From an uncultured Flavobacteriaceae bacterium (GTDB lineage Bacteria > Bacteroidota > Bacteroidia > Flavobacteriales > Flavobacteriaceae), in the NCBI GenBank assembly GCA_943788165.1, contig CALSPF010000003.1, positions 186,001 to 250,000 of the forward strand: a stretch of DNA of 64,000 nt, read 5' to 3'. The notes under the pieces are model-generated. The model was not told where the DNA came from. It was given only the letters and a program-made list of their open reading frames with translations, and made no database searches. Made by a program: the position numbers and the translations under genes. This document shows positions 5,018 through 24,296 of the stretch, piece after piece; positions within the stretch are counted from its first letter, which is position 1; every line of letters starts with the position of its first letter.

Positions 5018-6355
5018 TTAGTAGCCAGCATTTTGGTTGATCACACCACCAGTTGAAAGCACTTCAGAAACTGGTATTGGAAACACATGATAATTTGCAC
5101 TAGAAGGTGCAAAACCAGATGCAGCACCAACAAATCCAGTTCTTACTAAATCAAACCATCTATGACCTTCAAAAGCCAATTCAAGTCTTCTTTCGTTAGC
5201 AATGGCTTGTCTAACTTCTGCTTGAGTAGTAGCTGTTCCAGATAAACTAGATAAACCAGCTCTTGTTCTGATAGGATCTAACAAGGGTAGAACTGAAGCT
5301 GCAGAAGAATCGTTTTCATTCAATGCTTCAGCATACAAAAGAATAACATCTGCTAACCTAATCTCAATCCAGTCATGCTCAGTACCTAAACCACCATCTT
5401 TTGGGAATTTAACCGCTGTACGACCGTCAGCACTAAGGGTTACAGCTCTTCTTAAGTCTGTTCCTCCACCATTAGCATCGCTTGCGTCAAATGCTGCAAC
5501 TAAATCAGCATCAACAGGTAAATCTGATTTTGAATCATCTCCTACGAACCAGTTCCAAAAGTCAGAACCAAAAGAATATTCATCAACTATAGAACCTGTG
5601 ATACGTGTAGCATAAATAATCTCAGAATTTCCAGACTCGTTTGCAGCACCAAAGATTTCGTTGTAGTTAGACTTCAAACTAATTCCAGCTCCAGCAGCAC
5701 CATTTACAACTGTACCTAGGTGAGTAGCAGCGTTGGTGTAATCTCCCTGGGCAGCATATGCTTTTCCTAGTAAAGCTTGTGCAGCAATTCTAGAAGCTCT
5801 TCCGTCAACAATTGAAGTACTAAGACCTGCAACAGCATCTGTCAAATCTGGAATAATCACTGTACTGTATACCTCTGATGCAGGCTTTCTTACCAAGATT
5901 GACGTATCTGTTAAGCTAGGTGCAGCGGAAGTATTAATTGTAACAGCTCCAAAAGATCTTACCAATTTAAAGTAAGATAATGCTCTTAAAAACTTTGCTT
6001 CAGCAACTTGACCAGCGTCAGATGAATTTTCAATTACATTATTTGCACTAAGAATAGACTTATACATTGCTGTATAAAGGGGACCAAAAAACTGATCTTC
6101 CATTGTCGTCAAATTACTTGTATATGTATCGAACTCAGTATAAGGCGCTTCAAACATAAGTGCGTTATCGGATCTAAATTCTGCCATTACGGCCAATGGA
6201 GTAACTCCACCCAATTGATAATAATACGCTGCATTTAATACACCGTCAAAATCTGTCAATGAATCTGCACTTGCTAGATTAGATGGTGATTGATCCAAAT
6301 CGGTTGAACAAGCTGTTATGAACAGTGCTCCTAATAATATCTTTATATATTTCAT
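5018..6355 (-). CDS. SusD-like outer-membrane glycan-binding lipoprotein 1
   Basis: 445 residues with a lipoprotein signal peptide (lipobox FITAC, Cys16). The SusD/RagB signature is visible around residues 95-140 (repeated alanine/leucine TPR-like helices, AKFLRALSYFKLVRSFG) and the C-terminal NERRLELAFEGHRWFDLVR block near 385-405. It binds oligosaccharide at the cell surface as the lid of its SusC partner, encoded immediately upstream (9 bp). The alginate-oligomer specificity is inferred from the locus. It is a little shorter than SusD2. A strong terminator follows. Confidence 0.9.
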   Translation of the reverse strand: MKYIKILLGALFITACSTDLDQSPSNLASADSLTDFDGVLNAAYYYQLGGVTPLAVMAEFRSDNALMFEAPYTEFDTYTSNLTTMEDQFFGPLYTAMYKSILSANNVIENSSDAGQVAEAKFLRALSYFKLVRSFGAVTINTSAAPSLTDTSILVRKPASEVYSTVIIPDLTDAVAGLSTSIVDGRASRIAAQALLGKAYAAQGDYTNAATHLGTVVNGAAGAGISLKSNYNEIFGAANESGNSEIIYATRITGSIVDEYSFGSDFWNWFVGDDSKSDLPVDADLVAAFDASDANGGGTDLRRAVTLSADGRTAVKFPKDGGLGTEHDWIEIRLADVILLYAEALNENDSSAASVLPLLDPIRTRAGLSSLSGTATTQAEVRQAIANERRLELAFEGHRWFDLVRTGFVGAASGFAPSSANYHVFPIPVSEVLSTGGVINQNAGY

Positions 6356-6364
6356 TTTTTTTAT

Positions 6365-9300
6365 TTAAAAGTTAACATTTAAACCTAAAGTAAAACTTCT
6401 AACAACTGGACTTGCCCCTACTTGAGCACCATAGATTGTTGGATCTGTCCCCTTTACCCCTTCTGGGTTGTATGAAGTATAATCATCACCCATAATGTAT
6501 AATAGGTTCGTTCCAGCAAGGTATGCTCTCACAGATGTCAAACCAAGACCTTCAATAATCAATGGATCAAGTGTATATCCAATCGTAAGATTTCTAAGAG
6601 CTATGTATGAAGCATCTTGAATCATAGCATCGGTTTGATTTCTGTTTCTTTCGATGTATTCACCATTATGATCGGCTATACCATCTCCGTTAGGATCCAA
6701 ACGTGATCTGTCTAATCTTCCTCCCCATTGAGATCCGTAATACAATGGATCGATGTTATACACATCTGCACCATGAGATCCTTGGAATTGGAATGACATG
6801 TCAAATTCTTTGTAGTTTAAGTTGTGAGACATACCCCAGTAGAAGTCGGGTGTATTCTGTCCAATCTTAACCAAATCTCCTCCGTCTTCAACAGAACGTG
6901 TTCTATCAATTACATCATCATTATTTTGATCTACAACGTAAGACTCACCAGATTGGTTGTTTGGATGACGTGTTCCATCAGAAATGTAGTCCATTTCAAC
7001 AGTGCCTATGGTTTCTAATCCCCACATTTCACCAATTTGACCACCTACATAGTTTCTGAAGACAGCACCACGACCACTTTGGCCATAAATCTGCTGTGGT
7101 AACTCAACTAAACCACCTAAATCGGTGATCTCAGTCTCAACAGTAGATAAGTTGGCATTCATGTTCCATGTGAAGTCTCCATTGTCAACCAATAAAGCTA
7201 CTAATTCAAATTCTAAACCTGAACTTGTAACATCACCAACATTGAGAATAGAGGATGGGTTTCCAAGTACTTCTGATTGAGCTTGATTAATCAAGATATC
7301 TTCAATATCAGAGGTGTAATAGTCAACACCTAAGGTGATACGGTTATTTAAAAATCCAAGGTCAATACCATAGTTGGTTTCTGTATTTGTCTGCCAAGTT
7401 AAATCTGGGTTTGGCGAGTTTGAAGGAATTAAGTATCCTGTTCCGTAGATCGTTGCAGCAGGAGATAAAAGACTTAGTGAGTCATACGATCCTAGGAAGG
7501 ATGTTGTTCCCAGAGAACCTGAGCTAAATCTAACTTTCAATTGACTTAACACTTCATTGTCTTGAAGGAAAGCTTCATTGTGAATATTCCATCCTAAAGA
7601 GAAGGCAGGGAATGTTTCATAATGTTTGTTTGATCCAAAACGAGAGTCACCATCTCTTCTCAAAGAAACTGAAGCTAAGAAACGATCATCGTAAGCATAG
7701 TTAATTCTACCAAATACACTTTCACGCACTCTTGTTTCATCTCTTTCTGTTACGGTAAGGTCTGCAGGTGCAAACAAGTTGAAGTTAAGAATAGCTTCAT
7801 CTGGTACATTAACACCATTAACGGAGGTACCAACTAGTTTAGTCGTTTGGAATTCAACCCCAGCCACAGCTGAAATGTCGTGGTTACCAATCACTTTTGC
7901 AAAGTTCAAGGTAGTTTCACTCAACAAAGTAGATAATTTCAAATCTGTTTGTCGCATGAAGGTTTGAGAAGTTCTCGCTCTTGAATCATACCCAAGTAAT
8001 CTGTGAGAATAGGTTTGTGTATCTCTGATGTCACCTCCTAAAACAGTTTTCACATTCAATCCATCAATGATGTCATATTGTAAGTAACCACTTACGTTTG
8101 CAAAAAATGTTTTTTCCCAACTTTCTACATTGTCAAGCTTGGCAGCAGGTCCAGCATCTCCAGATCCTCCAATACCATTATTTGCTCTTCCATAATGCCA
8201 GTCTTGTGCTGCCATTCCTGGCTCTAAGTCAGAAATACTACTCGCTTCGTATCCTGAACCTCTATATCCATTGTCAAAAGCTGTTAAACCTAAACCTTGA
8301 GCCTGAGCATCCAGTTGTTGAACAAATGCAATCGACTCAGCAGTATGGTATACAGGGTGAACACCATAAGCACGTAATAAGTCTCTCATATCGTGACCCA
8401 AAATGTCTCTTGTTGAAGAGAATCCATTTGCATTAATTCCCGCCTTAAACTTGTCACCTAGTTTAGCGTCTACATTCATTCGGAAGTTAAGTCTTTCAAA
8501 TCCTTGGGTAATCACCACACCTTCGATGTCTTGATAACCAACAGATGCGAAGTAATTTACATCATCAGTTCCACCACTGATACTAAAGTCATGACTTGTA
8601 GATTGTGCACTTCTGAACAACCAATCTTCTGGACTAATGGCTCCTGGGGAATTTGCATATGCGTTTAATCTGTAATCTAAAAACGCTTGATCTTGCGTGG
8701 CAACTGTACTTGTCCAGTTTCCTGCAGCGATTTCAGATCTTGCATGTGCAGCCCATTCTGGACCAGACTGAAGAATGTTTTCTCTGTATTTACTGGAAAA
8801 GCTAGTGTAAGCATTATAGCTAAATGATGCTTTACCAGACATGCCTTTTTTGGTCGTAACCAAAATAACCCCATTCGCACCTCGAGAACCATAGATAGCT
8901 GCAGAAGCTGCATCTTTGAGTACCTCTAAACTTTGAATATCGTTAGGGTTAATGGACTGAATTCCTCCAGAAATTGGGTAACCATCAACCACTATTAATG
9001 GATTTGATGCACCTGAAATCGAAGAGGCAGCACGAATTTGAATCTTTGGTGCAGCACCGGGAGAACCATCTTGATTTTGAATTAAAACCCCGGAGAGTTT
9101 ACCAGCTAAGGCATCGTCAACACGCGCAGCTTGAACAGCAACTAGAGCATCTCCGCCAATCTTGGCAACAGCTCCAGTTAATTGTGATCTTTTACGTGTT
9201 CCGTAACCCGTCACAACAATTTCATCCAATTCGTTTTGGTCTTCTTGTAAAACAACATTAATGCTGTCTTGACCAGTATATTGGACAACTTGGCTAGAGT

Positions 9301-9526
9301 ATCCGATGTAGGATACCTCTAAATTTTGGTCAACTTCTATTGCAATGGTAAAGTTACCATCAAAATCAGAAATTGTGCCATTACTGGTACCTTGAACCAA
9401 GACAGTTGCACCAGGTATTGGCGCACCATCTGCACCAGCAACGGTGCCGCTGATTTGTGTCTGCGCAAAACTTATTGCCATGCAGAATAACACTGAAAAC
9501 AGTGTTAAATGAGATTTGATTTTCAT
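6365..9526 (-). CDS. SusC-like TonB-dependent receptor 1
   Basis: 1053-residue outer-membrane transporter. Order of parts: signal peptide (1-21), carboxypeptidase-regulatory-like domain (about 24-95), TonB-box region (DEIVVTGYG, about 101-110), plug (about 115-230, with ANGVILVTTKKG) and the 22-strand barrel ending in the aromatic residue of LGLNVNF. It forms a pedal-bin complex with SusD1 and takes up oligomers with TonB energy. Its N-terminus and its leader sequence closely resemble those of SusC2 at 18298-21372, indicating duplication. Three tandem operators at 9720-9757 lie 193 bp upstream. Confidence 0.93.
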   Translation of the reverse strand: MKIKSHLTLFSVLFCMAISFAQTQISGTVAGADGAPIPGATVLVQGTSNGTISDFDGNFTIAIEVDQNLEVSYIGYSSQVVQYTGQDSINVVLQEDQNELDEIVVTGYGTRKRSQLTGAVAKIGGDALVAVQAARVDDALAGKLSGVLIQNQDGSPGAAPKIQIRAASSISGASNPLIVVDGYPISGGIQSINPNDIQSLEVLKDAASAAIYGSRGANGVILVTTKKGMSGKASFSYNAYTSFSSKYRENILQSGPEWAAHARSEIAAGNWTSTVATQDQAFLDYRLNAYANSPGAISPEDWLFRSAQSTSHDFSISGGTDDVNYFASVGYQDIEGVVITQGFERLNFRMNVDAKLGDKFKAGINANGFSSTRDILGHDMRDLLRAYGVHPVYHTAESIAFVQQLDAQAQGLGLTAFDNGYRGSGYEASSISDLEPGMAAQDWHYGRANNGIGGSGDAGPAAKLDNVESWEKTFFANVSGYLQYDIIDGLNVKTVLGGDIRDTQTYSHRLLGYDSRARTSQTFMRQTDLKLSTLLSETTLNFAKVIGNHDISAVAGVEFQTTKLVGTSVNGVNVPDEAILNFNLFAPADLTVTERDETRVRESVFGRINYAYDDRFLASVSLRRDGDSRFGSNKHYETFPAFSLGWNIHNEAFLQDNEVLSQLKVRFSSGSLGTTSFLGSYDSLSLLSPAATIYGTGYLIPSNSPNPDLTWQTNTETNYGIDLGFLNNRITLGVDYYTSDIEDILINQAQSEVLGNPSSILNVGDVTSSGLEFELVALLVDNGDFTWNMNANLSTVETEITDLGGLVELPQQIYGQSGRGAVFRNYVGGQIGEMWGLETIGTVEMDYISDGTRHPNNQSGESYVVDQNNDDVIDRTRSVEDGGDLVKIGQNTPDFYWGMSHNLNYKEFDMSFQFQGSHGADVYNIDPLYYGSQWGGRLDRSRLDPNGDGIADHNGEYIERNRNQTDAMIQDASYIALRNLTIGYTLDPLIIEGLGLTSVRAYLAGTNLLYIMGDDYTSYNPEGVKGTDPTIYGAQVGASPVVRSFTLGLNVNF

Positions 9527-9988: not shown

Positions 9989-10753
9989 TTAGATGCCTAA
10001 AGCTTGTCCCCCACCAATCTGAATGGTCTCAGCAGTGATAAAGGCTGCATCATTACTTGCCAAGAAAGATACTACTGAAGCAACTTCTTGTGGCTGACCC
10101 AATCTTCCCAACATAATATTGTTCTTCCATGAAGCAAATACTTCTGGCTTGGTTGACTTGATTTGCGCATGGAAAGGAGTATCAATTGTTCCTGGTGATA
10201 CTGCATTCACGCGAATGTTGTATTCAGCTAAGTCTTTGGCTAAAGCCCGTGTAATGGCATGTACTCCAGCTTTAGAGGTACCATAGATTCCTGCACCTGG
10301 TCCACCAGCATTCCAACCTGCGTTGGAAGTGTAGTTGATGATGGTAGGAAGGTCTCCTTTCTTTAGAAAAGGAATCGCTGCTCTTGACGCAAAAAAGGTA
10401 GAGTCAAGGTTTAAAGCCATCACAAAACGATAAAATTCTGTGGTCATTTCCTCAAAACGTTGACGGCCACCTAATCCGCCGGCATTGTTTACCAATACGT
10501 CTATCTTTCCATATTTTTCACCAATGGCGTTGATATTACTGTTTACAGCGTCTTCATTGGTTACGTCAAAACCATAATACTCGGCAGTGATACCTTCGTA
10601 CGTAAGTTGAGCTACGCGCTCTGCACCTACTTCATCTTCAATACCGTTTAGGACAACGGTATAACCGTCTTGACCAAGGCGTTTGGCTACTTCAAAACCA
10701 ATACCGCCTGTGGCTCCAGTGATAACGGCTACTTTATTGTTTACTTTACTCAT
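9989..10753 (-). CDS. SDR oxidoreductase, probable DEH (4-deoxy-5-hexoseulose uronate) reductase
   Basis: 254-residue classical short-chain dehydrogenase. Cofactor motif TGATGGIG at residues 12-19, NNAG at 89-92, and the catalytic triad Ser143, Tyr157, Lys161 (YGTSK). In alginate degraders an SDR of this kind reduces DEH, the opened alginate monomer, to 2-keto-3-deoxygluconate with NAD(P)H. That function is inferred from position: it is co-transcribed behind a hexuronate transporter and a GntR regulator and sits between the lyases and kdgK-eda, and no other gene in the locus could perform this step. Confidence 0.85.
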   Translation of the reverse strand: MSKVNNKVAVITGATGGIGFEVAKRLGQDGYTVVLNGIEDEVGAERVAQLTYEGITAEYYGFDVTNEDAVNSNINAIGEKYGKIDVLVNNAGGLGGRQRFEEMTTEFYRFVMALNLDSTFFASRAAIPFLKKGDLPTIINYTSNAGWNAGGPGAGIYGTSKAGVHAITRALAKDLAEYNIRVNAVSPGTIDTPFHAQIKSTKPEVFASWKNNIMLGRLGQPQEVASVVSFLASNDAAFITAETIQIGGGQALGI

Positions 10754-10788: not shown

Positions 10789-12075
10789 TTATTCTGTAAT
10801 TGTTTTGCGTACGGGTTCTATCTTTTTTATCAAAATGAAAATGGTTAAAACACCTAAGATAACGGATACCGTTATGGCGATAAATGCTGGAGTATACGAC
10901 TCAGTGGTTATTCTTCCGATGAACCAATTCATAATCATTGGTGATACCGCAGCAATAGTACCGGCTAAACCAGCTAAGGTTCCAACTGAAGGTCCTCTGA
11001 ATAAATCACTCGAGATGGTTTGCACGTTTCCAATTGTAAACTGAAATCCGAAAAGAACTAAACCCGCTAAATAAATAAAGGTCATAAAGTTGTTTTCACC
11101 TACAAATTGTATGATCGAGACAAACCCAATAAACACCAACAGTCCACCAACGGAAATGGTAATTTTACGTGCAGCATCTACCGTTTTGGTTTTCATAAGG
11201 AAACCTGAGAACCAGCCTCCAACTATACTTCCAGTGGCTGCCATGAGGTAAGAAATCCACATAGTGGCAGCAATTTGCTCGATACTTAATTCAAAGGTTT
11301 TGTTCAAATAAATAGGCATCCAACCCGCAAAGAACCACCAAATGGGTTCAATGAAGAAACGACATAACAAAACACCCCAAGATTCTTTGTGGCTTAAAAT
11401 TTGTCCTACGGACAAACTCTTAGCTTTTACATCAGTGGGTGCTGCATCTTTGTCAATTCTATCGGCGAGAATGAGATCTCTTTCTTCTTGGGTAACCCAA
11501 GGGTGTTTTTCTGGGGTAGATTTATTAAGAAATAACCAAGGAATCACCCATAGTAGGCCCACTGCACCTAGAATAATGTAAGTCGTTTTCCAACCAAAGT
11601 TGGCATAAAGAAAAACGATCACAAATGGAGCTATAACGTTACCAATAGAAGCACCAGAGTTGAAAATACCCTGTGCAATAGCTCTTTCCTTGACGGGAAA
11701 CCATTCCCCATTACTTTTTACCGCTCCAGGCCAATTACCTGCTTCACCCAAACCTAAAAGACCACGAACAACGGATAAGGAGATTAATCCTCGTGCGAAA
11801 GCATGAAATGCTGAAGCCAAAGACCATACAACGATAGAAACAACAAAACCCATGCGGGTACCTATTTTATCGTATAGTTTTCCAGAAAGAAATTTTCCCA
11901 CTGCATAGGTTGCCATAAAAACGTTGAGCATAATGGCATAATCTGCATTATCCATTCCTAGATCTTTACCCATTTCAGGCCATAACAAAGCAAAGGCAGT
12001 TCTATCTATGTAATTTATAACCGTTGCGATAAATATTAAAAAGATAATCCACCATCTTAGTCCGTTAATTTTCAT
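10789..12075 (-). CDS. MFS transporter of the anion:cation symporter type, probable uronate importer
   Basis: 428 residues, about 12 transmembrane helices. The N-terminus INYIDRTAFALLWP resembles the NY(L/I)DR motif of hexuronate transporters of the ACS family (ExuT-like), and the loop-2 motif GKLYDKIGTRMGF is present near residue 64. In this locus it is expected to carry the unsaturated uronate monomer released by PL17 from periplasm to cytoplasm. It lies between the gntR2 and SDR genes (35-bp gap to the SDR) and has no operator of its own, so transcription from the gntR2 promoter is likely. Confidence 0.87.
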   Translation of the reverse strand: MKINGLRWWIIFLIFIATVINYIDRTAFALLWPEMGKDLGMDNADYAIMLNVFMATYAVGKFLSGKLYDKIGTRMGFVVSIVVWSLASAFHAFARGLISLSVVRGLLGLGEAGNWPGAVKSNGEWFPVKERAIAQGIFNSGASIGNVIAPFVIVFLYANFGWKTTYIILGAVGLLWVIPWLFLNKSTPEKHPWVTQEERDLILADRIDKDAAPTDVKAKSLSVGQILSHKESWGVLLCRFFIEPIWWFFAGWMPIYLNKTFELSIEQIAATMWISYLMAATGSIVGGWFSGFLMKTKTVDAARKITISVGGLLVFIGFVSIIQFVGENNFMTFIYLAGLVLFGFQFTIGNVQTISSDLFRGPSVGTLAGLAGTIAAVSPMIMNWFIGRITTESYTPAFIAITVSVILGVLTIFILIKKIEPVRKTITE

Positions 12076-12171: not shown

Positions 12172-12873
12172 TTATGCACTGTAACAATACTGGTACAACA
12201 CTTTAAAGTGTGCCTTCATTGCTTCTTTTGCTGCATCTGGATCTTGTGCTTTTATTGCGGTTAATATATCCTGATGTTCTTCAATTCCTTTGTAGGCAGT
12301 GTCCTTATCACAGACATGGTGCTGCTCAAAATTATTTATGATTTCGGGGGTTATTTTTAACATGAAAGAAATCAAGGTTGGATTACCGCTTGCTTTGGCA
12401 ATGGCCAAGTGAAATAGCAAATCTTCTTCCACAGCATCTTTACCTTGATGTACTTGTTTAGAATAGTCAGACAGGGTGTTTTCAATATGAATTAAGTCGT
12501 CAGTTGTTCTTCGCAAGGCTGCTAGCTTTACACCCTTGAGCTCTAAAAAAATACGTGCCTCAACTAGATTTTTGAAAGAAGGTACAGGAAGGCTTAGAAT
12601 GTCATCTATCATGCCATTCAAAGCAGTGATCCCTATATCAGCAACAAAAGTTCCACTCTGCGGAATCGATTTGACTAGCCCATAAAATTCAAGGGTATGT
12701 AAAGCTTCTCTTAAGTTAGACCGAGAAACATTGAACTTCTCTGAGAGCATGCGTTCCGAAGGCAACTTATCACCCGGTTCAAGATTTTTAAAATTTATTA
12801 ATTCTTTTAATTTCGTGATTATGAGCTTTTCGATGGCTTGGATATCTGTGTCAAGTATATTTTTATTAAACAT
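12172..12873 (-). CDS. GntR/FadR-family (FCD) regulator, paralogue 2, probably autoregulated
   Basis: 233 residues; winged-helix N-terminus (about 12-79) and FCD domain (about 99-224). Most positions are identical to the paralogue at 4138-4827, including the recognition helix and the ligand-domain segment HHVCDKDTA; differences cluster in the first 25 residues and around residues 95-145. A double operator (13029-13053) lies 155 bp upstream, so this copy should be controlled by itself and/or its paralogue, whereas paralogue 1 should not. It heads the operon with the MFS carrier and the DEH reductase. Confidence 0.87.
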   Translation of the reverse strand: MFNKNILDTDIQAIEKLIITKLKELINFKNLEPGDKLPSERMLSEKFNVSRSNLREALHTLEFYGLVKSIPQSGTFVADIGITALNGMIDDILSLPVPSFKNLVEARIFLELKGVKLAALRRTTDDLIHIENTLSDYSKQVHQGKDAVEEDLLFHLAIAKASGNPTLISFMLKITPEIINNFEQHHVCDKDTAYKGIEEHQDILTAIKAQDPDAAKEAMKAHFKVLYQYCYSA

Positions 12874-13148: not shown

Positions 13149-14063
13149 TTAATCATGAGATATCTCTAGTTCATAAAATTTAACTTTTGAAAAAGAGCCT
13201 TCATCCCTTGATTGAAAGTAATTGCCCGCTTTGAAATAATTTTCAAAGACTCCCCACTTCCGTATGTGCACACTATCATAAACCTTGAATTCATTTTTAT
13301 TTAGAACGACCACTAATTTACCCGCTGAAACTTTAACCTCTAAAATGAATTTTCGAAAGCCAACTTCTTGACTAAAGTTAAAGCCTTCATCATTGTCCCA
13401 AGCTTCTTCATAAAAGATCTCAGGAGTATCAATATTGATATTTTTCAAGACCTTAGATTTTAACCTTATCCTACCATTATCCCAATAAATCTTCAATATT
13501 GGGGGGGCGTTGTTATCGTCTTCTACTATAAGGTCGCGCTGTTCATTGGTTAAACGACCATGGATTTGCATGATAATCGTTCGGTGATATTTCCCATTCG
13601 TATCTTTTGTAGACGCTTCCATGGCTATTTTACCTTTCATGTAGGCTCCGTCAGAAAATTTCCAGTTGACGTTGTTGTCACCAGGCACCATTTGTTCTCT
13701 TAGTTCTGAACGGGTATATTTAGTATTCTTGGTTTTAGATGAAGTTGGCATCGCATGAAAAACAATAGCACCTTTCAATGAATCGATATACATATAAGGC
13801 TTAGCAACATCAATTGAAGCAAAGTCATATATTTCTGGTGGAGAAATTTCGTATGGCTTCCCTTTATCGTTGTTCACAGGTAAGGTAACCTTCCAATGAC
13901 TTAAATCTATCTTTGGAAGTTTTGACTTTTTTTTACGTTTTTTAGCCTTCTTCTTAGCAGACTTAGTTGGTAAACTCAAAACGCCACTATCCAATTGTTG
14001 GGCAATGGCGTTTGGAGAGATAAATATCACTAATACTAGCGCTTTTAGAAAGTTGTGCATCAT
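13149..14063 (-). CDS. PL7 alginate lyase with a polybasic linker
   Basis: 304 residues; signal peptide (1-21, cleavage near AIAQ), no lipobox. The PL7 catalytic domain covers about 52-304 with all three family signatures: RSELRE (118-123), QIH (166-168) and YFKAGNYFQ (276-284). In PL7, QIH rather than QVH is associated with activity on guluronate-containing alginate. It beta-eliminates polymer to unsaturated oligomers outside the cell or in the periplasm. Odd feature: residues 36-48 are almost all Lys/Arg (KKKAKKRKKK), a polybasic segment between signal peptide and enzyme that could contact the polyanionic substrate. Starts 4 bp after the PKD lipoprotein gene; last gene of the susC2 operon. 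Confidence 0.92.
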   Translation of the reverse strand: MMHNFLKALVLVIFISPNAIAQQLDSGVLSLPTKSAKKKAKKRKKKSKLPKIDLSHWKVTLPVNNDKGKPYEISPPEIYDFASIDVAKPYMYIDSLKGAIVFHAMPTSSKTKNTKYTRSELREQMVPGDNNVNWKFSDGAYMKGKIAMEASTKDTNGKYHRTIIMQIHGRLTNEQRDLIVEDDNNAPPILKIYWDNGRIRLKSKVLKNINIDTPEIFYEEAWDNDEGFNFSQEVGFRKFILEVKVSAGKLVVVLNKNEFKVYDSVHIRKWGVFENYFKAGNYFQSRDEGSFSKVKFYELEISHD

Positions 14064-14067
14064 TATT

Positions 14068-15813
14068 TTACTCTACCGGATATATCTTCACATTATCTAC
14101 GAATGCATCTCGATCATTTACTGCATAAATGAATATGGATACTTCACCTACAGAATTAGATCTAAATAGCTCCATAACAGTGGTTCCTCCTGAACAACCA
14201 TTGTCTGCAAACTTACCGTTAGCATTTGTACCAACGTGTTGTACTAATGGATTAGTTGCTAATGCTACTGTACTGTCACTAAAATGACCATTTAAAATTG
14301 ATGCTATAATACTATTGGTTTCAGGACCTCCAGACTTTATAGCGTATTCAAACTCAAATATATAATCAGTATTTGGACTCAATACAACCGCTTGGTAAGC
14401 ATATCTGGTATCACCAGCACGGGCAGATCCATCAGGATTAGCACGTTGACTAGAAGACCACTTTGCACCTCTTGTTTTTGAGCCATTATCAGATCCATCG
14501 TAATTAGTACAAGATCCATCACTAGATCCACTAAAAGGGTTAGAACTTCCGGGCGTATTGGCTATTTTCCAAGGTCCGTACGTTTCGCTAGATCCACCAT
14601 CAAAGTGCCCCCAAAGTATTTCAGGATTAATTGGTCCTGATGGTCCACCAACTCTTACTTCTTTGGTAATTGAAGTCGCTTTATTGATAAAGTTAGTTGT
14701 TGTTAAGGTAACCATATAGGCTCTTTCAACACCATCATTGGTATAACTATGGGTTGGGTTTTCATCCGTCGAAGTATTTCCATCTCCAAAGTCCCAAAGA
14801 TAAGTCGTTGCGCGTTCAGATGCATTTGCAAAAGTCACTGCAAAGTCACTCTCAACATCGTCAAAAGTAAATTCAGGTACAGAAAGTGGCTCTCTATAAA
14901 AAAGAACATTATCTATATTAAGTGTTGCCTCAGCATTTGCATTACCACCATCAACTAATTCAAAAGTGATCGCATCAATTTGGGTTATACCTTCCTCTGC
15001 GAGGTCAATAACTAGACTGGCCCAAACGTCATCTACTAATACTTGTTCAAATACTTGTCCACCTACAGAAATCTTAACATTATCAACCCCTTTACTATGA
15101 ATAGAGTGAAGATTTAAATGAAGGTAATCGGCAGAAGACCCTGTACCAAAAACATCGGCTACCACAACTGGTGAAGCAAAAGAAATCGATGCTGTATTAG
15201 GACTTTGAAGTCTAGAATATTGAATAACGTCGTTGCCTGTATCCCCAACCTCAAGTTCATTAAACTCAGAAGTATTACTCCCCTCTAAGTTGGCAGAAAT
15301 AGCATTGGTATAAGCGCTGTAAGCTCCTCCACTTTCAGTACCATTACTAAAAACCTTATAAACATTTTCATTGAGTAAAGAGGGTGAAGTTGGAGCAGAA
15401 GTTGGACGAGAAGGCGAATGTGTAACTGTGAAGTTTTGCGTTTGCGACACATCAGCTAGTCCTTGATTTGATTTTGCTGTAACAGTAATTACATAAGTTA
15501 CCTGCGTATCCGTATTTGGATAATCATACGAGGCAGTCCCCCCGTTTTCAGTAATCGTAACCGGTTCTCCATGACCGAAATTAACTACGTAAGATGTTAC
15601 ACCAATAGCAAGTGGTGTGACAGAAACATAGGTTCCATCGTCTAGGCCATCTTCATTTGCACCAGCCGAAACTGAAAAACTTGAAAATGAAATTTCAGAT
15701 AGCCCAGGCCCATTAGAATTGGCCAATGGCTGTATAGCCTCATAGTCGTCGTCACAAGACACAGCTAGTACAAAGACGCCTAGAGCTAGTATTCCTTTTT
15801 TAAATAAATTCAT
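14068..15813 (-). CDS. PKD-domain surface lipoprotein, putative alginate-binding protein (large paralogue)
   Basis: 581 residues from the chosen start at 15813, where a lipoprotein signal peptide begins (lipobox LAVSC, Cys20); the frame is open further upstream but without signal-peptide character. Parts: Ig/PKD-like domain with NFGHG (about 35-135), a beta-sandwich resembling carbohydrate-binding modules (about 150-300), a canonical PKD domain with WDFGDGNTS (about 315-390), and a C-terminal domain (about 400-581) shared with the neighbour at 15839-16789 (NYDGSDNG, GAKW, RYAYQA, DNVKIY). Probably a cell-surface glycan-binding protein in the SusE/F position downstream of susD2. Ligand binding is inferred from context only. 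Confidence 0.8.
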   Translation of the reverse strand: MNLFKKGILALGVFVLAVSCDDDYEAIQPLANSNGPGLSEISFSSFSVSAGANEDGLDDGTYVSVTPLAIGVTSYVVNFGHGEPVTITENGGTASYDYPNTDTQVTYVITVTAKSNQGLADVSQTQNFTVTHSPSRPTSAPTSPSLLNENVYKVFSNGTESGGAYSAYTNAISANLEGSNTSEFNELEVGDTGNDVIQYSRLQSPNTASISFASPVVVADVFGTGSSADYLHLNLHSIHSKGVDNVKISVGGQVFEQVLVDDVWASLVIDLAEEGITQIDAITFELVDGGNANAEATLNIDNVLFYREPLSVPEFTFDDVESDFAVTFANASERATTYLWDFGDGNTSTDENPTHSYTNDGVERAYMVTLTTTNFINKATSITKEVRVGGPSGPINPEILWGHFDGGSSETYGPWKIANTPGSSNPFSGSSDGSCTNYDGSDNGSKTRGAKWSSSQRANPDGSARAGDTRYAYQAVVLSPNTDYIFEFEYAIKSGGPETNSIIASILNGHFSDSTVALATNPLVQHVGTNANGKFADNGCSGGTTVMELFRSNSVGEVSIFIYAVNDRDAFVDNVKIYPVE

Positions 15814-15838
15814 ATCTTTTATTTTAATTAATATAAAA

Positions 15839-16789
15839 TTAGTCTGCAGCGTAGACTTTAACATTATCGATGTAAACATCAACATCGGTAACTGCATAAA
15901 ACATAATGGCCATTTCACCCGTACCATTTGCAATAAACTCTTGCTGAACGTTGGTATGCGTTGTTTTACCAAGTACTTCACTTGCAATAAACTGAGCAAT
16001 AGGATCACTGGCTACAGCATCAGCTCCGTCCGCAAAATGAGCGCCTAAAACTTCAGAAATGATTCTATTTCCTCCTGCGGCAACACCCCCCTGCTCTGCA
16101 GGGGTTTTGATTGCATATTCATACTCAAGAATGTATCTCACTGTTCGCTCATTGGGGATAGAAGGTGAAACAAGGATTGCTTGGTAAGCATAACGTGTAT
16201 TAGCACTTAAATAAACACCTGCTGAAGTTGATTTTGTCCACTTTGCTCCTTTGGTTTTTGCTCCATTGTCCGAACCGTCATAATTGGTAAATGAACCATC
16301 ACTACTAGAGTTAAATGGATTAGTGTTTCCACCAGTGAATGATGAGAATTTCCAATCACTAGAACCGCCATCGAAATCACCATTGAGAATTTCAACAGGA
16401 AGCGGAACAAATACATCTTGTACAACTACATCAATGGTAACAGCAGTTGAAGCATTATTGGCGTCTAAAGCTTTAAGTGTAACTGGATAGGTACCCTCCC
16501 CTGCTACAAAAGTGAATGAAGGGTCTTTCTCGGTTGACGTATTTGCGTCACCAAAATCCCAAGCATAATTGGTCGACTCTGTCGATAAGTTGTTAAAATT
16601 AATTGTTCTATAGTTAACTGCATCTGGTATGTAGGCAAAAGCAGCTACTGGGGGTGTCAAGTCGGCAATTGAACCCGCCTCTGGGAGTTCATACTCAAAA
16701 GCTTCTTCACAACTCACTGCAAAGACCATTACTGATAAACACAGTACCAACCTTACGGTTTTATTGAAAATAGATAATTGTTTTTTCAT
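15839..16789 (-). CDS. PKD-domain surface lipoprotein, putative alginate-binding protein (small paralogue)
   Basis: 316 residues; lipoprotein signal (lipobox FAVSC, Cys27). One PKD domain (about 45-125, WDFGDANTS), then a C-terminal domain (about 130-316) clearly homologous to that of the 581-residue lipoprotein encoded 25 bp downstream: both contain SDGS-TNYDGSDNG, K-T-(K/R)GAKW, TRYAYQA and end DNVK(V/I)Y. It sits 18 bp after susD2 in the same operon. I do not recognise the shared domain as a named family; a role in surface binding of alginate oligomers is the simplest reading. Confidence 0.8.
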   Translation of the reverse strand: MKKQLSIFNKTVRLVLCLSVMVFAVSCEEAFEYELPEAGSIADLTPPVAAFAYIPDAVNYRTINFNNLSTESTNYAWDFGDANTSTEKDPSFTFVAGEGTYPVTLKALDANNASTAVTIDVVVQDVFVPLPVEILNGDFDGGSSDWKFSSFTGGNTNPFNSSSDGSFTNYDGSDNGAKTKGAKWTKSTSAGVYLSANTRYAYQAILVSPSIPNERTVRYILEYEYAIKTPAEQGGVAAGGNRIISEVLGAHFADGADAVASDPIAQFIASEVLGKTTHTNVQQEFIANGTGEMAIMFYAVTDVDVYIDNVKVYAAD

Positions 16790-16807: not shown

Positions 16808-18286
16808 TTATTGTGGATTTTGTGTTAAAAGCCCATCACTTAAATTTATTTCCCTTGCAGGAATTGGCAGTAATAAACGGCGGACATTATAACTCGTATA
16901 GCCCTTGGCACTGGCATGACTGTCCAAGACATCGTTTGCAACCCCAAGTCTTATTAAATCAAAGAAACGATGATTCTCAAAAGCCAACTCTACTCTTCTT
17001 TCAAGTAACAAAACATTTTTTGTTAAAACAGATGGGCGGTCAGCTACAGGGTCAAATCCAGCACGAACCCTAACGGCCATATAAGAGTCAATTGCGGCAT
17101 TGTTTGTTGTATCGCCTCCTGCCATCAAAGCCTCAGCATGTAATAATAAAATATCTGAATAGCGTAAAACGATCCAATCGTTTCCTGCAGTACCCGGAGA
17201 AGAACCATACGAAGGATTATTCGTATCTGAAATGTCTGATCCCTCAGGCAAGAATTTTATTACTTCTGCATTTTCCGGAATCGGAAGTTGTACATCTGTT
17301 CCAAATGCAGCAAAGGAGGCAGCGGTTCTGTTTCCGCCATGCATATTGAAGTCTACAACCAAATTTGGATTGACGATGTTTAGACCATCCTGTCTTCCTT
17401 GTCTTTTGTAAGAAGTGAATTCTGACGAGAAACCTTGACTTTCATCAGGATTTCCTGCAATATATTCAATGGAAAAAATCACCTCATTATTTGACTCATT
17501 ATAGAACACATTACTAAAGTCGGGTTCTAAAGAAAACTCTCCACTACCTACAATAGCTTCACACATTGCTCTTGCCCCATCGTAATTGGGAGTTGGTTGT
17601 GTTAAGTAAACCTTAGCTAACAAGCCCTGTGCTGCAGCCCTAGAAGCTCTAGATTTGCTTCCATCGTTACTCAAATTACTTACTCCTTCTTGTAAATCAG
17701 TCACAATTTGTGTGTAAACTTCCTCAAGCGGATTTCTTGTAAAAAGTGATTCTTTATCATCTGCAACAACAACTGAGGTTACTAATGGTACAGGACCATA
17801 TAAGCGTACTAAATTAAAATAAGCGTAAGCTCTTAAAAATTTAGCTTCAGCTCTGTAAGCAGCGACGTTAGATTCATCTGCATTATCAGAATACGATAGA
17901 ATACTATTGGCTCTAAAAATAATCTCATACATGGATTGATAATAATCCTCAGACTGAATATTCTCAGGTTCAACTATATATCTATGAAAATCAGCTCTTG
18001 ATCCTTCAAGTGTTTTACTTCGTGTGTTATCCGATCTGTGTTCTGTCAAAAGATATTCCAATTGAATTCCTCTGTTAAAACGAATAGAACTTCCTTGTGT
18101 ATTCTCATTCACACCCTGAATGGCGTCATAAATACCAATTATACCCGCCAATACATCGGCATCGGATTGGTAAAATGTTTCTGCTACGATAGCAGAGTCC
18201 GGCAATGGATTCAAAAATTCGTCTGAATCACAAGAGACAAACAGCGCTCCAGTAATTGCCAATATTAAAAATTTTATATGTTTCAT
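16808..18286 (-). CDS. SusD-like outer-membrane glycan-binding lipoprotein 2
   Basis: About 492 residues. An ATG at 18295 is also in frame, but the one at 18286 gives a standard lipoprotein signal (MKHIKFLILAI, lipobox FVSC). SusD features: AEAKFLRAYAYFNLVRLYG near residue 147 and ERRVELAFENHRFFDLIRLG near residue 430. It pairs with SusC2 directly upstream (11-bp gap). Compared with SusD1 it is longer and only distantly similar, so the two SusCD systems may differ in oligomer preference. Confidence 0.9.
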   Translation of the reverse strand: MKHIKFLILAITGALFVSCDSDEFLNPLPDSAIVAETFYQSDADVLAGIIGIYDAIQGVNENTQGSSIRFNRGIQLEYLLTEHRSDNTRSKTLEGSRADFHRYIVEPENIQSEDYYQSMYEIIFRANSILSYSDNADESNVAAYRAEAKFLRAYAYFNLVRLYGPVPLVTSVVVADDKESLFTRNPLEEVYTQIVTDLQEGVSNLSNDGSKSRASRAAAQGLLAKVYLTQPTPNYDGARAMCEAIVGSGEFSLEPDFSNVFYNESNNEVIFSIEYIAGNPDESQGFSSEFTSYKRQGRQDGLNIVNPNLVVDFNMHGGNRTAASFAAFGTDVQLPIPENAEVIKFLPEGSDISDTNNPSYGSSPGTAGNDWIVLRYSDILLLHAEALMAGGDTTNNAAIDSYMAVRVRAGFDPVADRPSVLTKNVLLLERRVELAFENHRFFDLIRLGVANDVLDSHASAKGYTSYNVRRLLLPIPAREINLSDGLLTQNPQ

Positions 18287-18297
18287 CGTTAACATGT

Positions 18298-21200
18298 TTA
18301 GAAGTTAATATTTAAACCAACGGACATTGTGCTAAACAATGGTGTTCCAGCACGTTGAGCACCATAAGACTGAGGTGTATTATTAGAATCAATGTACTCT
18401 GGATTAAATCCATGATAATCATCAGAAGTAATGTAGAGAAGATTCTGTCCAGTTGCATAAATTCTCAATGAATTGATCCCAACAGCAGAAACCAAGTCAT
18501 CTGAAAAAGTATATCCAAGGTTAACATTTCTTAAAGAAAAGTATCCTGCACTCATGACCATATCGTTTGTTGCTGTTCTTGGCTTGATAAAAGAAGCATC
18601 TGAAATGATTCCTGCAGCTACGACAGCTTGCTCGTCAGAGGTAGCACCATTCCATTGAGAAAAGAAATATTGATCTCCAATATTTCTGACTTCAGCACCT
18701 TGACTTCCTTGAATCATAAAAGAAAAATCAAAGTTCTTGTAGTTGAATTGGTTTGTGAAACTCCAAACAATTTCTGGATAAGGATTACCCAAAATAGTTT
18801 TGTCATCATCAGTGATTAAACCATCACCGTTTAAATCTTTTACAATTACGTCTTCAGACATACCGTTGATTGGAATCCAAGGAGAATCCCAATATTGGTT
18901 ATCTAACTCTTGGTCTACAACGTAACCATAGAACGAAGAGATCGGATTACCCACTAGGTTGATCCATTGTGAATTTCTTCCGAAACCATCTTCGGTAAGC
19001 GCTCCATCTGATTCTCCGTAATCCAACAATTCATTTTTATTGGTAGAGGCAATCAACGTAGAATTCCATGAAAAATTCTCACCGGTAATATTCTTGGTTC
19101 TTAATTCAAATTCCCAACCACTGTTTTTTACTTTACCTAAGTTAACAATACCGTTATTAAACCCTGTAACATAGGAAACGGGGTTGTTTAACAATAATTG
19201 ATCGCTTGTTCTTTCGTAATAGTCGATTGAACCAGAAATCCTGTTGTAAAGTAAGCTAAAGTCTAAACCAGGGTTGATTTCTTCTGATGCTTCCCATTGT
19301 AGCAATAAATTTGCAATATTCTTTGGGGAGACACCAGCTGTAATACTTCCATCTACAACAGCATTAGAAGTGTTTAACTGGGCAAGGTAAGGCCATGCAT
19401 TTACTAGATCATCACCAACATTAAATCGTTCAGATCCAGTACGACCATAACTTGCTCTAAGCTTGAGGGTGGTAACAAAGTCAGATCCTGAAAGGAAATC
19501 TTCGTTGGCTACATTCCAACCCACAGATAGGGCGGGGAAGTTACCCCATTTAGATTGAACCCCAAATACAGAGCTTCCGTCTCGTCTAAAGGATGCATTT
19601 AAAAGATACTTGTTATCATAGGCATAACCAACGCTTGCGAAATATCCAATCTTGTTGGTTACTACGTTTATCTCACCATCAGAAACAATTGTAGTCGCTC
19701 CTTGTAGGTTTTTCAATAAATCATTTGAGTAACCTGTTCCAATAATCTGGCTAGACTCAGCGCTTCTTCGCTGAATGGTAATACCTGCTAGTGCGCTTAT
19801 ATCATGACTACCAATTTGTTTTTTAAAAGAAATGGTATTATCTGAAATAAGACGTGTTCTAAATCTATTGTTTAATAGGTATTTAGCTCTACTCGTACCA
19901 GACTGGTGATGCTTTGACCCATCCCAGCGTGTTCTTTTACGTTGTTCAATAGTAACTCCTAGAGAAGACTTAGCCACAAGACCGTCGGCTATCTTGTACT
20001 GTAAATATGCACTTGTCAATAATTTTGTATTGAACTCAAAATGCTCTCTTTCAATATATTGAGCATATGGGTTTGCATCTCCTGAAGTACGTGGACGGTT
20101 ATCCGATCCATTCCCATCAAGATCCAATTCAACCAAATGGTTTTCATAGAAATAATCACCTGGTCCAACATTTGGATAAGCACTTGTGTTAACAAATTGC
20201 ATGGTCTCTGGAGTATGGTAGATCGGTAACCAAGGAGACTGTCTAATTGGATTATGAATAGAGGTTGGCAATCTTCTTTGCTTTGAAAAGGACGGCGTTG
20301 CGCTTAATCCGAATTTTAACTTATCGTTAATCTGATTATCCAATTTAAGTTTTGCAGAGTACAGTTTATAGTCGTCCGTAATAACAACACCTTCATCATG
20401 AACATAACGAAGTGAAGCCGTGAATTTTGTTGCTTTTGATCCACCACGTGCGGATAATGAATGGCTTGTTATAAACCCACCATCAAAAAACACATCTTGC
20501 CAATCTCTATCAATACCGGTTACTTCAACAATTTTAAGTGCATAAGCGGTTTGTTCTGAGAGTGTCCCTGTAGCTGCACGTTCTTTTACTGCCCATTCAG
20601 CAGTACTTTTTCTGTAATCGTCACTACCAAAAGCATTTTTATACCCTGTGTAGGTTTCATAAGAAAATTTTGTCTCTCCCTCTTTTCCTGTTTTTGTGGT
20701 AATTAATATGACACCATTAGACCCTTCACTACCATAGATGGCAGCAGAAGCAGCATCTTTCAATACTTCAAAAGATTCTACATCATTCATGTCTAAGTTT
20801 CCAAGAAACCCTGAATCAACAACAACACCATCAACTACGACAGCCGGACCGGAATCAGCGGTAATTGAACCAAAACCACGAATGGTAATGGTTGGCGCTC
20901 CACCCGCTTCTGGGTTAGTTGCCTGAATATTTACTCCAGAAACCTGTCCAATCAGTGCATCATCAACACGCGCAACTGCTATTTGATCTAAATTTTCGTT
21001 TACAATCTTTGAAATTGCTCCAGTTACAAGACTTTTCTTTTGTGTCCCATATCCTGTTACTATAATTTCATCTAATTCGTTCTGGTCTTCTTGTAATCCA
21101 ACAACGATGTTGTCTTGACCCGTATATTGTATTACTTGAGTGGAATAACCTAGATAAGAAATTTCAAGGTTTTGGTTGAGATTAACAGAAATGGTGAAAT

Positions 21201-21372
21201 TCCCATCAAAGTCTGAGGTTGTTCCATTGTTGGTTCCTTGAACAATTATAGTGGCGCCAGGAATGGCCTCCCCATTTTGATCAGTGATTGTTCCGCTGAG
21301 CTGAGCTTGCGCAAAGCTGTAAGCAGATGCCAGAAACACAGCCAACAGTGTTAAGTGAAGTTTGATTTTCAT
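18298..21372 (-). CDS. SusC-like TonB-dependent receptor 2
   Basis: 1024 residues from the start at 21372; the in-frame ATG at 21435 would add a non-signal extension and would run into the leader conserved with susC1, so it is rejected. Signal peptide (1-21), carboxypeptidase-regulatory-like domain (about 24-95), TonB-box region DEIIVTGYG, plug domain with SNGVILITTKTG, then beta-barrel ending GLNINF. First gene of a probable operon susC2-susD2-PKD-PKD-PL7. Three tandem operators lie 198 bp upstream. Confidence 0.93.
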   Translation of the reverse strand: MKIKLHLTLLAVFLASAYSFAQAQLSGTITDQNGEAIPGATIIVQGTNNGTTSDFDGNFTISVNLNQNLEISYLGYSTQVIQYTGQDNIVVGLQEDQNELDEIIVTGYGTQKKSLVTGAISKIVNENLDQIAVARVDDALIGQVSGVNIQATNPEAGGAPTITIRGFGSITADSGPAVVVDGVVVDSGFLGNLDMNDVESFEVLKDAASAAIYGSEGSNGVILITTKTGKEGETKFSYETYTGYKNAFGSDDYRKSTAEWAVKERAATGTLSEQTAYALKIVEVTGIDRDWQDVFFDGGFITSHSLSARGGSKATKFTASLRYVHDEGVVITDDYKLYSAKLKLDNQINDKLKFGLSATPSFSKQRRLPTSIHNPIRQSPWLPIYHTPETMQFVNTSAYPNVGPGDYFYENHLVELDLDGNGSDNRPRTSGDANPYAQYIEREHFEFNTKLLTSAYLQYKIADGLVAKSSLGVTIEQRKRTRWDGSKHHQSGTSRAKYLLNNRFRTRLISDNTISFKKQIGSHDISALAGITIQRRSAESSQIIGTGYSNDLLKNLQGATTIVSDGEINVVTNKIGYFASVGYAYDNKYLLNASFRRDGSSVFGVQSKWGNFPALSVGWNVANEDFLSGSDFVTTLKLRASYGRTGSERFNVGDDLVNAWPYLAQLNTSNAVVDGSITAGVSPKNIANLLLQWEASEEINPGLDFSLLYNRISGSIDYYERTSDQLLLNNPVSYVTGFNNGIVNLGKVKNSGWEFELRTKNITGENFSWNSTLIASTNKNELLDYGESDGALTEDGFGRNSQWINLVGNPISSFYGYVVDQELDNQYWDSPWIPINGMSEDVIVKDLNGDGLITDDDKTILGNPYPEIVWSFTNQFNYKNFDFSFMIQGSQGAEVRNIGDQYFFSQWNGATSDEQAVVAAGIISDASFIKPRTATNDMVMSAGYFSLRNVNLGYTFSDDLVSAVGINSLRIYATGQNLLYITSDDYHGFNPEYIDSNNTPQSYGAQRAGTPLFSTMSVGLNINF

Positions 21373-21499
21373 TCTTTGTTTAGTTAGTTTATTTATACAG
21401 TAAATAAATACATCTTTAAAAATAGATGATCGCACATTAATAACATTGAATTAACTTTTTCAATAAAAAAGTTTACTCTAGGCTACCAGGGCGGTATCG
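21373..21499 (-). promoter_or_regulatory. Long 5' leader of susC2 conserved with that of susC1
   Basis: Contains AGTAAATAAAT (21399-21409), TGATCGCACA (21427-21436, 55 bp from the ATG exactly as in susC1) and GGCGGTATCG (21490-21499). Sequence between the blocks is not conserved, which argues that the blocks themselves are functional sites and not just remnants of recent duplication. Confidence 0.55.
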
Positions 21500-21650: not shown

Positions 21651-21998
21651 TTATTTCATGAAATCTTCACGAATCGGACTAAATACATCGATGAGTTCTC
21701 CTGCTTCGATACAAATTGCTCCATGCAATACATTGGTAGGGATATAAAAATTATCGCCCGTACTTAGTCGTTGTGTTTCACCATCGATGGTTACATCAAA
21801 AACACCAGAAGCTACCTGTGTTACTTGAGAATGGTGATGCTGATGCATGGGACCAATTCCCCCTTTATCGAAAGCAACATGGACCAACATGATTTTATCA
21901 TCATAACCCATTATTTTTCGCTTTACCCCTTCTCCAACGGTTTCCCATTCTTTATCTTTTGTCAATAAAAAAGAGTTACTTGTTCCAAAACTTTTCAT
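21651..21998 (-). CDS. kdgF: KdgF-type cupin, unsaturated uronate ring-opening protein
   Basis: 115 residues from the start at 21998; a longer in-frame ATG at 22106 overlaps the PL17 3' end and is not credible. Single cupin barrel with the metal-site pattern H-x-H-x-H-x-Q (His52, His54, His56, Gln58) and His92. KdgF proteins promote conversion of cyclic 4,5-unsaturated monouronate, from pectin or alginate, to the linear ketone. That is the step between PL17 and the DEH reductase here. Located 10 bp downstream of the PL17 gene, hence in its operon. Confidence 0.85.
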   Translation of the reverse strand: MKSFGTSNSFLLTKDKEWETVGEGVKRKIMGYDDKIMLVHVAFDKGGIGPMHQHHHSQVTQVASGVFDVTIDGETQRLSTGDNFYIPTNVLHGAICIEAGELIDVFSPIREDFMK

Positions 21999-22008
21999 AA
22001 TTAATTGT

Positions 22009-24263
22009 TTAATTGGTTTGAATAAAATATGGTCCAGTCCATTGCTGTTCAACTCCATCGAGGAGGATAGAATGTAACTGATTTTTGTTTTTGTTATTGT
22101 TGGCAAAGTAGAGCTTGATAGAAGCCCCTTCTGCTAGATTGATGGAAATAACACTGTAGTCTTCTGTTTCCATTAAAATTGATATACCCTTTATTTTTGT
22201 TCGGGTGTTTTTTGATATTTCAGTTACCGGGCTGTAGCTACCATGTGTTTCTATAGCGTTAACAAAAAGAGTACTTGCAGTATTCGCTCTTCGAATAACA
22301 AAGGAGGGGTCATCCCGCAAATTGAACTCAGGATCGTTGGCCCCTAGTTTTGTAAACAAATAGGTGTCCCCATGCTTACTCGCCATACTGAGCGTATGAA
22401 AAGTATTGTTGGAAAACCAACTCAACTGATCAATTTCTACCGTGGCCGTACCTTTTGCTGTTAACCATAAATGCTGATACCCATGTTTTTTTCCAAGAGG
22501 TACAAGTGATTCAAGTGACTCAACATCAAAATTAGTAGAAATTAGCTGCCCAAAGTAATGATAGGGTAAATCGTATTTATTGTTGTCGGATGCATTTACG
22601 TTAAAGACATCAAGAATCAAAGGGTTTTCAAATCGTTCATCTTCAACCATTACTAAGGTTCGATGCATTTTCACTCCTTCATAGGCATTGTTTTCTTTAG
22701 CGCTAATCAGCTGATGCCCGTTGGAAGACAACTCACTGACGTATTTAGTTGAATGAAATTGACTCCCTAATTCATATTTTCCTTTAAAATGGGAAGTTTC
22801 ATTGACCACTAGCGTGTTGTGTGCAATGGTTTGCTTTGCCCATGTTTTATTCTCCTTTAAATATCCTCCTCCATTTTTTTGGTCAATATTCACAAAGCGT
22901 GCTAGACCATAATCTTGCAAAACCTCTTCCCCTTTGAAGTAAAGGGAAAAAGAAAGTTTATCGTAATGTCCATGGCTATTCCCTTGTGCCGTATATTTGG
23001 CGACAAGATTCAATTCGCTTTCAACATCCCCAGCACGAAGAATAGTAATCCCTCCTTGTTTGCCCATTGGGCCATCTCTAATTTCCATTGATTTTTTTGA
23101 AAAAGGAACTGCTTTTCCTTCTTTTATTGCCATAGCTACAGCGAAACCTGCATCATCTAGTGTGATCTTTTCTTGCGCACTGGCAATCGACAGTAAACCT
23201 GGATTGCTATCGCCATAATGATAGGCAATGTCTACCGCATGAAACCAGCTCACGCGAGAAAAATAGGACATCCCTTTCTGGGCGTCAGTTAAGCGGGTAA
23301 AACTCGCCGTCTGTATCGGTTAAGTTCAATAACGTGTTCACTGCCTTTAACAGGAGCACGCCATTTTTGTACTCAAATATCTTTTCTTCGGGGTCGCACA
23401 TTATTCAGATCCTACTGCAAATAAGCAAATATGGATACATCGCGTAACGTTGATAGTAGGGTGCCTCTGTATAGTATCCTTCGGGAGAAAAAGGTGCTTC
23501 TATATTTGCTAAAAAGCCGGCTTTTCCTTCTTTATCTTTTATAAATCCTCCATCGTTGTCTTTTGCGTTTTCAGAGATTCCGTCTTGTTTTAGTCCATAC
23601 AACGCACGTTGAATTAACTCTTCGTCATCCATTACCAATCCCATCATACCAACGGCGGCATTCCCCCAGGTACTATGGTTGTGGATGCGGTTAAAGTATT
23701 GAGGGTTTTCAACTGAAATATAATCGGCAAATGGACGAAATAATTCGTTTTCTAAATGCTTTCTTTCTTTTCTAGATAAAGAATTATAAATACAATCATA
23801 TGCTTGACTTACATAAACTAACCAGTTTGCATCATTTAAGCATTGCCAAAATAATTTACCTCTAGCATATGATCTTGGCTGAGGATGAATGGGTAAAGAT
23901 TTGTATATACGGGCATATTCCATTAAAACATCTTTCACATAATCAGCATAAGCATCATCTTCTAAAATTTGATATAAAACACCAGCTTTTTGAAGGATTA
24001 GAAAGTTTTTTTTGTGACGAACGTGGGTATATCCACCGGCCATATCCTTTGGTGTAGGAACATCAATCCCTGTTTTCATTTCGGCATCAACTTCGGCTTT
24101 AACCTCAGCTAAATAGGCATCAAAAAAAGGAACTTTTCCTAAGTTTTCTCTAATTTGCTCAACACCCGATTGTGTTAATATTAAATTAGGGTGATCCTGA
24201 GCCACTGCAGCTAAAGAAATAAAGAAAATTAAAACAGTAGTTTTAAGGTTTAAATAGTCGCAT
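22009..24263 (-). pseudogene. PL17 oligoalginate lyase interrupted by several frameshifts
   Basis: Exolytic alginate lyase that would release unsaturated monouronate from oligomers in the periplasm. Two long open pieces remain: 23405 to about 24248 (signal peptide, alginate-lyase helical domain, IHNHSTWGNA catalytic Asn/His region) and 22009 to about 23271 (heparinase II/III-like beta domain, NSHGHYDKLSF). Between them (23230-23430) the expected peptide is recovered only by switching frame about six times (NNVRPEEKIFEY, TDGEFYPLN, DAQKGMSYFSR and so on). The start also needs a shift: ATG at 24263 opens MRLFK, and dropping one C near 24248 continues into LKTTVLIFF. Every inferred change is a single-base insertion, so sequencing error is as likely as true decay. 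Confidence 0.85.
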
Positions 24264-24271
24264 TCATAATA

Positions 24272-24296
24272 TTGGATTACCAAATTGGTTTACCAA
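24272..24296. promoter_or_regulatory. Double GntR-type operator at the 5' end of the PL17 gene
   Basis: TTGGATTACCAA (24272-24283) and TTGGTTTACCAA (24285-24296), centres 13 bp apart. It lies only 8 bp from the inferred PL17 start codon at 24263, whereas the other arrays are 105-198 bp from theirs. The in-frame ATG at 24283 is inside the operator and is unlikely to be the start. Confidence 0.8.

Follow-up and report, generated by a model that had tools for sequence, protein, structure and literature searches.

Alginate loci are common and well studied in marine Bacteroidota, and their second surface-binding protein is often omitted from the descriptions. What do two adjacent PKD lipoproteins contribute to such a locus, and what is the unnamed domain with which both of them end? 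These questions are raised by a window of 64 kb—the whole stretch of DNA analysed here, taken from a genome of 2.18 Mb in 4 contigs. We propose, with a probability of roughly 0.78, that both proteins act as surface glycan-binding lipoproteins (SGBPs) in a locus for alginate use and that their common C-terminal domain is a carbohydrate binding module (CBM)-like jelly-roll binding alginate.

Two PKD lipoproteins in an alginate locus

The window contains a standard flavobacterial alginate locus, encoded on the reverse strand. A SusC-like TonB-dependent transporter (18298-21435; assigned by sequence and conserved order) is followed by a SusD-like glycan-binding lipoprotein (16808-18295; PF07980/PF14322), the two PKD lipoproteins—the Short protein (15839-16789, 316 aa) and the Long protein (14068-15813, 581 aa)—and a PL7 alginate lyase (13149-14063; PF08787, E 9e-51). 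These five genes are separated by 2, 18, 25, and 4 bp, an operon-like spacing. On the PL7 side follow a GntR/FCD regulator (12172-12873; family match), an MFS transporter (10789-12075), and an SDR reductase in the position of the DEH reductase (9989-10753); on the SusC side lies a KdgF-like cupin (21651-22106), the last three being assigned by sequence and conserved locus order. The PL17 oligoalginate lyase (22009-24283) has a broken frame, with ORFs of 292 and 420 aa in two frames where relatives have one gene of 740-780 aa, which marks either a pseudogene or a sequencing error. Downstream of the SDR gene there is a second SusC/SusD pair (5018-9526, reverse strand), whose close relatives in L034 and L098 are flanked by PL7 and the GntR gene; similar pairs also occur in L105 and L207. 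Next to the locus, a gene on the forward strand (26377-32700) encodes a secreted protein of 2107 aa in which cadherin-like segments are repeated.

The Short protein consists of a lipoprotein signal, one PKD domain (16430-16603; PF18911, Pfam PKD_4, E 2.7e-10), and the C-terminal domain that we call type 1 (15842-16396). In the Long protein, which starts at an ATG at 15813, the lipoprotein signal is followed by an Ig-like domain (15421-15690, residues 42-131; predicted strands without a family match), a middle beta domain (14896-15363, residues 151-306), a PKD domain (14653-14847; PF18911, E 3.7e-13), and the type-1 domain (14071-14625). A longer ORF with a GTG start, which reaches 16008, overlaps the upstream gene, and its start is unlikely for this protein. 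Pfam thus counts one PKD domain in each protein, and the N-terminal halves do differ in domain number, as a preliminary description of this DNA had stated: the Long protein bears the Ig-like and the beta domain in addition, upstream. Its full-length model shows four folded parts—Ig-like domain 42-131, beta domain 151-306, PKD ~315-388, and C-terminal domain—at a mean pLDDT of 80 and a pTM of 0.49, which leaves their arrangement relative to one another uncertain. The middle beta domain has no named family; its weak match to SusE/SusF (PF16411; E 8e-4, 20.1 bits) stays below the cut-off of 27.5. That it arose by duplication of the C-terminal domain has no support (profile probability 0.8%). It could serve as another binding module.

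Acidic residues after the lipoprotein Cys are a surface-export signal in Bacteroidota. In both proteins, acidic residues come after a lipobox-like Cys (CEEAFEYEL and CDDDYE), and 82% of 108 domain proteins with a pattern-scan site carry D/E at position +2 after the predicted lipid-anchored Cys. Judged from these sequences, the Short and the Long protein would be exposed at the cell surface. Two attributes of SGBPs are present: a gene directly after SusD in the PUL and—as a sequence signal—a lipoprotein with an acidic surface-export motif.

The shared C-terminal domain and its duplication

The common C-terminal domain noticed in the preliminary description spans ~185 aligned residues from EILxGxFDGGSS to DNVK(I/V)Y, and the motifs named there are found in the domain pair, in the form of NYDGSDNG, TRGAKW, and TKGAKW. 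Aligned to each other, the two copies share 89/197 identical residues (45%; 63% positive, E=2e-51). Their aligned nucleotides are 65% identical, and the duplication is therefore old. In a tree of C-terminal domains, the long (580-591 aa), mid (480-516 aa), and short architectures each form one separate group and need only two changes, from which it follows that the duplication predates these genera and that the copies were not homogenized. As every architecture class is a single group, there is no sign of gene conversion between the two domain copies of the window. A single clade of the long and mid C-terminal domains is weakly rejected (p-AU 0.032).

Across 83 members, the residues W19, G37, K55, R74, Q78, Y88, Y94, and F154 (domain numbering) are invariant. 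The Lys of the K55 motif recurs in most members of four other domain types described below and the Arg of the R74 motif in types 2 and 5; K55 and R74 are candidates for uronate contacts. The overall composition is acidic, with 7% K+R and 13% D+E, and there are a conserved Asp-rich loop (SSDGSxxNYDGSDNG) and a conserved Asp-Asn near the C terminus of the domain. Because of this acidity and the Asp-rich loop, we speculate that Ca2+ may take part in the ligand contact.

A new family within an old fold

A match to a known CBM family, which the preliminary description had named as the finding that would speak against a new module, did not appear directly for the type-1 domain in Pfam or NCBIfam, where neither the domain alone nor 31 relatives gave a credible match. 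CBM_4_9 (PF02018) matches 0/31 members even at E 1, SusE/SusF (PF16411) does not match the C-terminal domain, and NCBIfam gives no match in the 31 members at E<=0.01, including the DNRLRE model that CBM96 resembles. Matches to Methyltransferase, RES-toxin, and WGR are attributed to chance (E above 0.02). PDB sequence searches with the type-1 domain returned nothing significant. No relatives were found in the viral contigs and plasmids searched, and a viral fold library gave general jelly-roll matches only.

The AlphaFold model of the type-1 domain of the Long protein, built from a 31-sequence alignment, is a beta-jelly-roll with a pLDDT of 93.3 and a pTM of 0.90. Foldseek matches it to a porphyran CBM (8xmz, 2e-6), to CBM16 (2zex, 1.6e-5), and to an alginate CBM (8zqf, 3.8e-5); structure Z-scores are 14.4 for 8xmz, 13.5 for CBM16 (2zew), 12.4 for 8zqf, and ~12 for CBM4. 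With 131 residues aligned at 2.4 Å, the comparison with CBM16 identifies the fold as a jelly-roll, and CBM16, CBM4, and CBM_4_9 together lie at Z 12.1-13.5 and an rmsd of ~2.4-2.9 Å. However, domains of insecticidal toxins reach scores against this model that equal those of CBM16, and the fold by itself is therefore not proof of sugar binding.

Profile comparisons connect the type-1 domain (profile A2) to diverged relatives that occupy the same gene slot in other loci. The compact relatives A3, ~155 aa long, are linked to A2 by hhalign at a probability of 99.7% (E 2e-26), and 6/10 of them match CBM_4_9 at E<=1 (best E 1.9e-6). Among further slot types, CBM_4_9 matches 4/4 members of A4—the one shown in full lies just above the cut-off—and 2/13 of A8 (~210 aa), but none of A9 (~200 aa). 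The remaining profile links are 96.5% for A2-A8, 89% for A2-A9, 98.7% for A3-A9, and 94% for A3-A4; for contrast, the middle and the C-terminal domain of the Long protein reach the 0.8% given above. The window type differs from CBM_4_9 in an additional loop of ~25 residues (NPFxSSSDGSxxNYDGSDNG). Hence, the new module put forward in the preliminary description survives in that the domain belongs to no named family, but its fold and its diverged relatives place it among the CBM4/9/16-type jelly-rolls. As far as sequence profiles and the predicted model can tell, the type-1 domain is a new family within this old fold.

Known alginate-binding modules offer further points of comparison. PDB 8zqf, titled 'novel alginate-binding carbohydrate binding module', shares the fold, a similar length, and—if our reading is right—the ligand, alginate. 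Its rmsd to the model is 3.0 Å over 147 aligned residues at 16% identity, which is not nearer than other CBMs, and it is named as part of an alginate lyase instead of an SGBP. By sequence, the profiles A2 and A6 do not retrieve it from the PDB at E<=10, the A3 profile reaches it at a nonsignificant E of 0.17, and neither type-4 nor type-5 domains match it in PDB searches. 8zqf is probably the CBM of Mei et al. 2024. CBM96 and CBM113 are alginate-binding families as well, and CBM96 is a beta-sandwich; it is set apart from A2, which has no NCBIfam match, by sequence models rather than by direct structure comparison, and no entry among the 50 PDB fold matches listed was identified as CBM96.

Distribution across Bacteroidota

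A single-sequence search found the domain in 33/299 surveyed flavobacterial genomes. A PL7 alginate lyase is present in 71/299 of the surveyed genomes and in 33/33 of those bearing the domain (hypergeometric p=2e-24). The gene lies directly between SusD and PL7 in 32/33 of them, within a locus of the order PL17-cupin-SusC-SusD-x-PL7-GntR-MFS-SDR; in the remaining genome, L063, the match is weak and falls on a protein with a T9SS tail encoded next to PL17. Of the 38 PL7 genomes left, 12 contain relatives by profile search, and 7 further ones have the alginate SusD with a type-4 domain in the slot. The bearers include Zobellia, Maribacter, Formosa, Winogradskyella, Polaribacter, and Flavobacterium sp. 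UMI-01, and the domain also occurs in Saprospiraceae, Marinilabiliaceae, Flammeovirgaceae, and Cyclobacteriaceae.

Among 77 more public loci, SusC is present in 75/77 and PL7 in 68/77, counts in which the underlying pattern-based scan favors close relatives. Random genome draws were positive in 8/395 cases for the phylum and 10/395 for the class, and the extra matches fetched from them lie in the same locus except for one second copy (L165). For 180 distinct proteins of all five types—a set whose mode of collection favors alginate loci—the upstream neighbor is directly SusD in 114 and another domain protein in 50, and the downstream neighbor PL7 in 112 and another domain protein in 50. An occurrence mostly outside alginate loci, which had been named as an argument against an alginate-binding module, is thus not what is seen: nearly all copies lie inside them.

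Proposed alginate binding and its alternatives

That alginate is the ligand, and that it is handed over to SusCD, is inferred from this setting. The lipid anchor and the Ig and PKD domains would hold the binding module away from the outer membrane, where it might catch alginate chains and hand them to SusD/SusC and the lyases—a role that would be comparable to that of SusE and SusF for starch. As with SusE and SusF, the genes of the two proteins come immediately after SusD and encode lipoproteins with spacers and a C-terminal domain for binding, here a putative one; their C-terminal domain, however, matches no SusE/SusF family, and the locus partner is alginate. In the Zobellia model, surface PKD proteins recruit alginate oligosaccharides (PMC8073546); locus type and proposed role agree with ours, and the C-terminal domain is not described in the part of that paper available to us. 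Zobellia amurskyensis (L092) carries the domain. Another parallel is BtuH of gut Bacteroides, a surface lipoprotein with PKD/Ig spacers, a C-terminal ligand domain, and a TonB-dependent transporter alongside, which, however, binds vitamin B12 through a C-terminal domain without known structural homologs according to its authors (PMC8941943). For the gut alginate locus of Bacteroides eggerthii, which has PL6 and PL17 lyases, no such gene is among those named in the accessible part of the report (PMC11381880).

Several points speak against alginate binding. The same fold serves other ligands and nonsugar roles, co-location with alginate genes does not identify a ligand, and an acidic domain would be odd for a binder of a polyanion unless there is a local basic patch or a Ca2+ bridge. 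The domain might instead mediate protein–protein contacts by which the lipoproteins dock onto SusCD or a lyase at the outer membrane, with the sugar being bound by SusD. The strict SusC/SusD neighborhood and the use of the fold outside sugar binding fit such a role, which we nevertheless regard as unlikely: several domain types sit behind the same kind of SusCD, some of them CBM_4_9 by Pfam, and type-4 and type-5 domains are also found on secreted T9SS-tailed proteins encoded outside the SusD-PL7 slot. More improbable still is an anchoring of the cell to the algal wall through another brown-algal glycan found alongside alginate—fucoidan, mixed-linkage glucan, or cellulose. CBM16-type relatives do bind glucans, mannans, or carrageenans (PMC5802718), and CBM113, a domain of a flavobacterial cellulase/alginate lyase, groups with one alginate-binding and one beta-glycan-binding family (PMC13235733), but the gene is part of an alginate transporter operon and not a neighbor of glucanase or fucoidanase genes. 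Least probable is that the domain binds no ligand itself and is a cap with a structural or Ca2+-binding role. The Asp-rich loop and the Asp-Asn would fit such a cap, but the invariance of residues such as W19, K55, R74, and Q78 across the 83 members speaks against it, as does a domain that is swapped for other CBM-like types and not lost.

An exchangeable slot behind SusD

The paired arrangement in the position of SusE/F, as proposed initially, holds for the slot after SusD but not for the pairing as a general feature. Among 23 loci with a window-type domain (family survey plus the window), 8 carry it in both proteins and 4 in the longer protein only, next to a CBM_4_9-like short partner, and in the remaining 11 it is found in a single short protein. 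Moreover, at least five related jelly-roll types, some matched by CBM_4_9, occupy the SusD-PL7 slot. This slot could act as a specificity cassette, in which related jelly-rolls are swapped behind the same kind of transporter and each may recognize an alginate pattern of its own—M-rich, G-rich, mixed, acetylated, or Ca2+-gelled. We offer this as a tentative suggestion that may well turn out wrong; if true, the alginate on which a species can feed would depend on the domain type in its slot.

Neither the locus type nor the PKD lipoprotein is new, and recruitment of alginate by this protein has been proposed before. As far as could be found, there is no earlier description of the unnamed domain family, with its nearly exclusive tie to alginate loci in several Bacteroidota families, or of a slot in which at least five related domain types replace one another. 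Mei and co-workers have reportedly described an alginate-binding protein and an alginate-specific CBM, which might overlap with this domain. A domain model would let annotators spot alginate SGBPs directly, the exchangeable types provide a clean test of whether SGBPs tune the alginate choice of a bacterium, and the domain proteins may serve as alginate probes.

Type-4 and type-5 domains also occur on stand-alone secreted proteins near alginate loci (L076:1862-2773, L115:595-1512, L190:1174-2088, L195:16337-17251, and L063:9916-10956), with a T9SS sorting tail where the tail was read; these proteins are candidate soluble or cell-surface alginate binders. A 791-aa protein of a Cyclobacteriaceae member (L128:9086-11461) combines a type-1 domain, a PKD domain, and a type-5 domain in one chain. 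Finally, the second copy in L165 (L165:349-3612) is a 1087-aa protein with a T9SS-like tail and one compact (type-2) domain encoded outside the alginate locus, which this genome has too.
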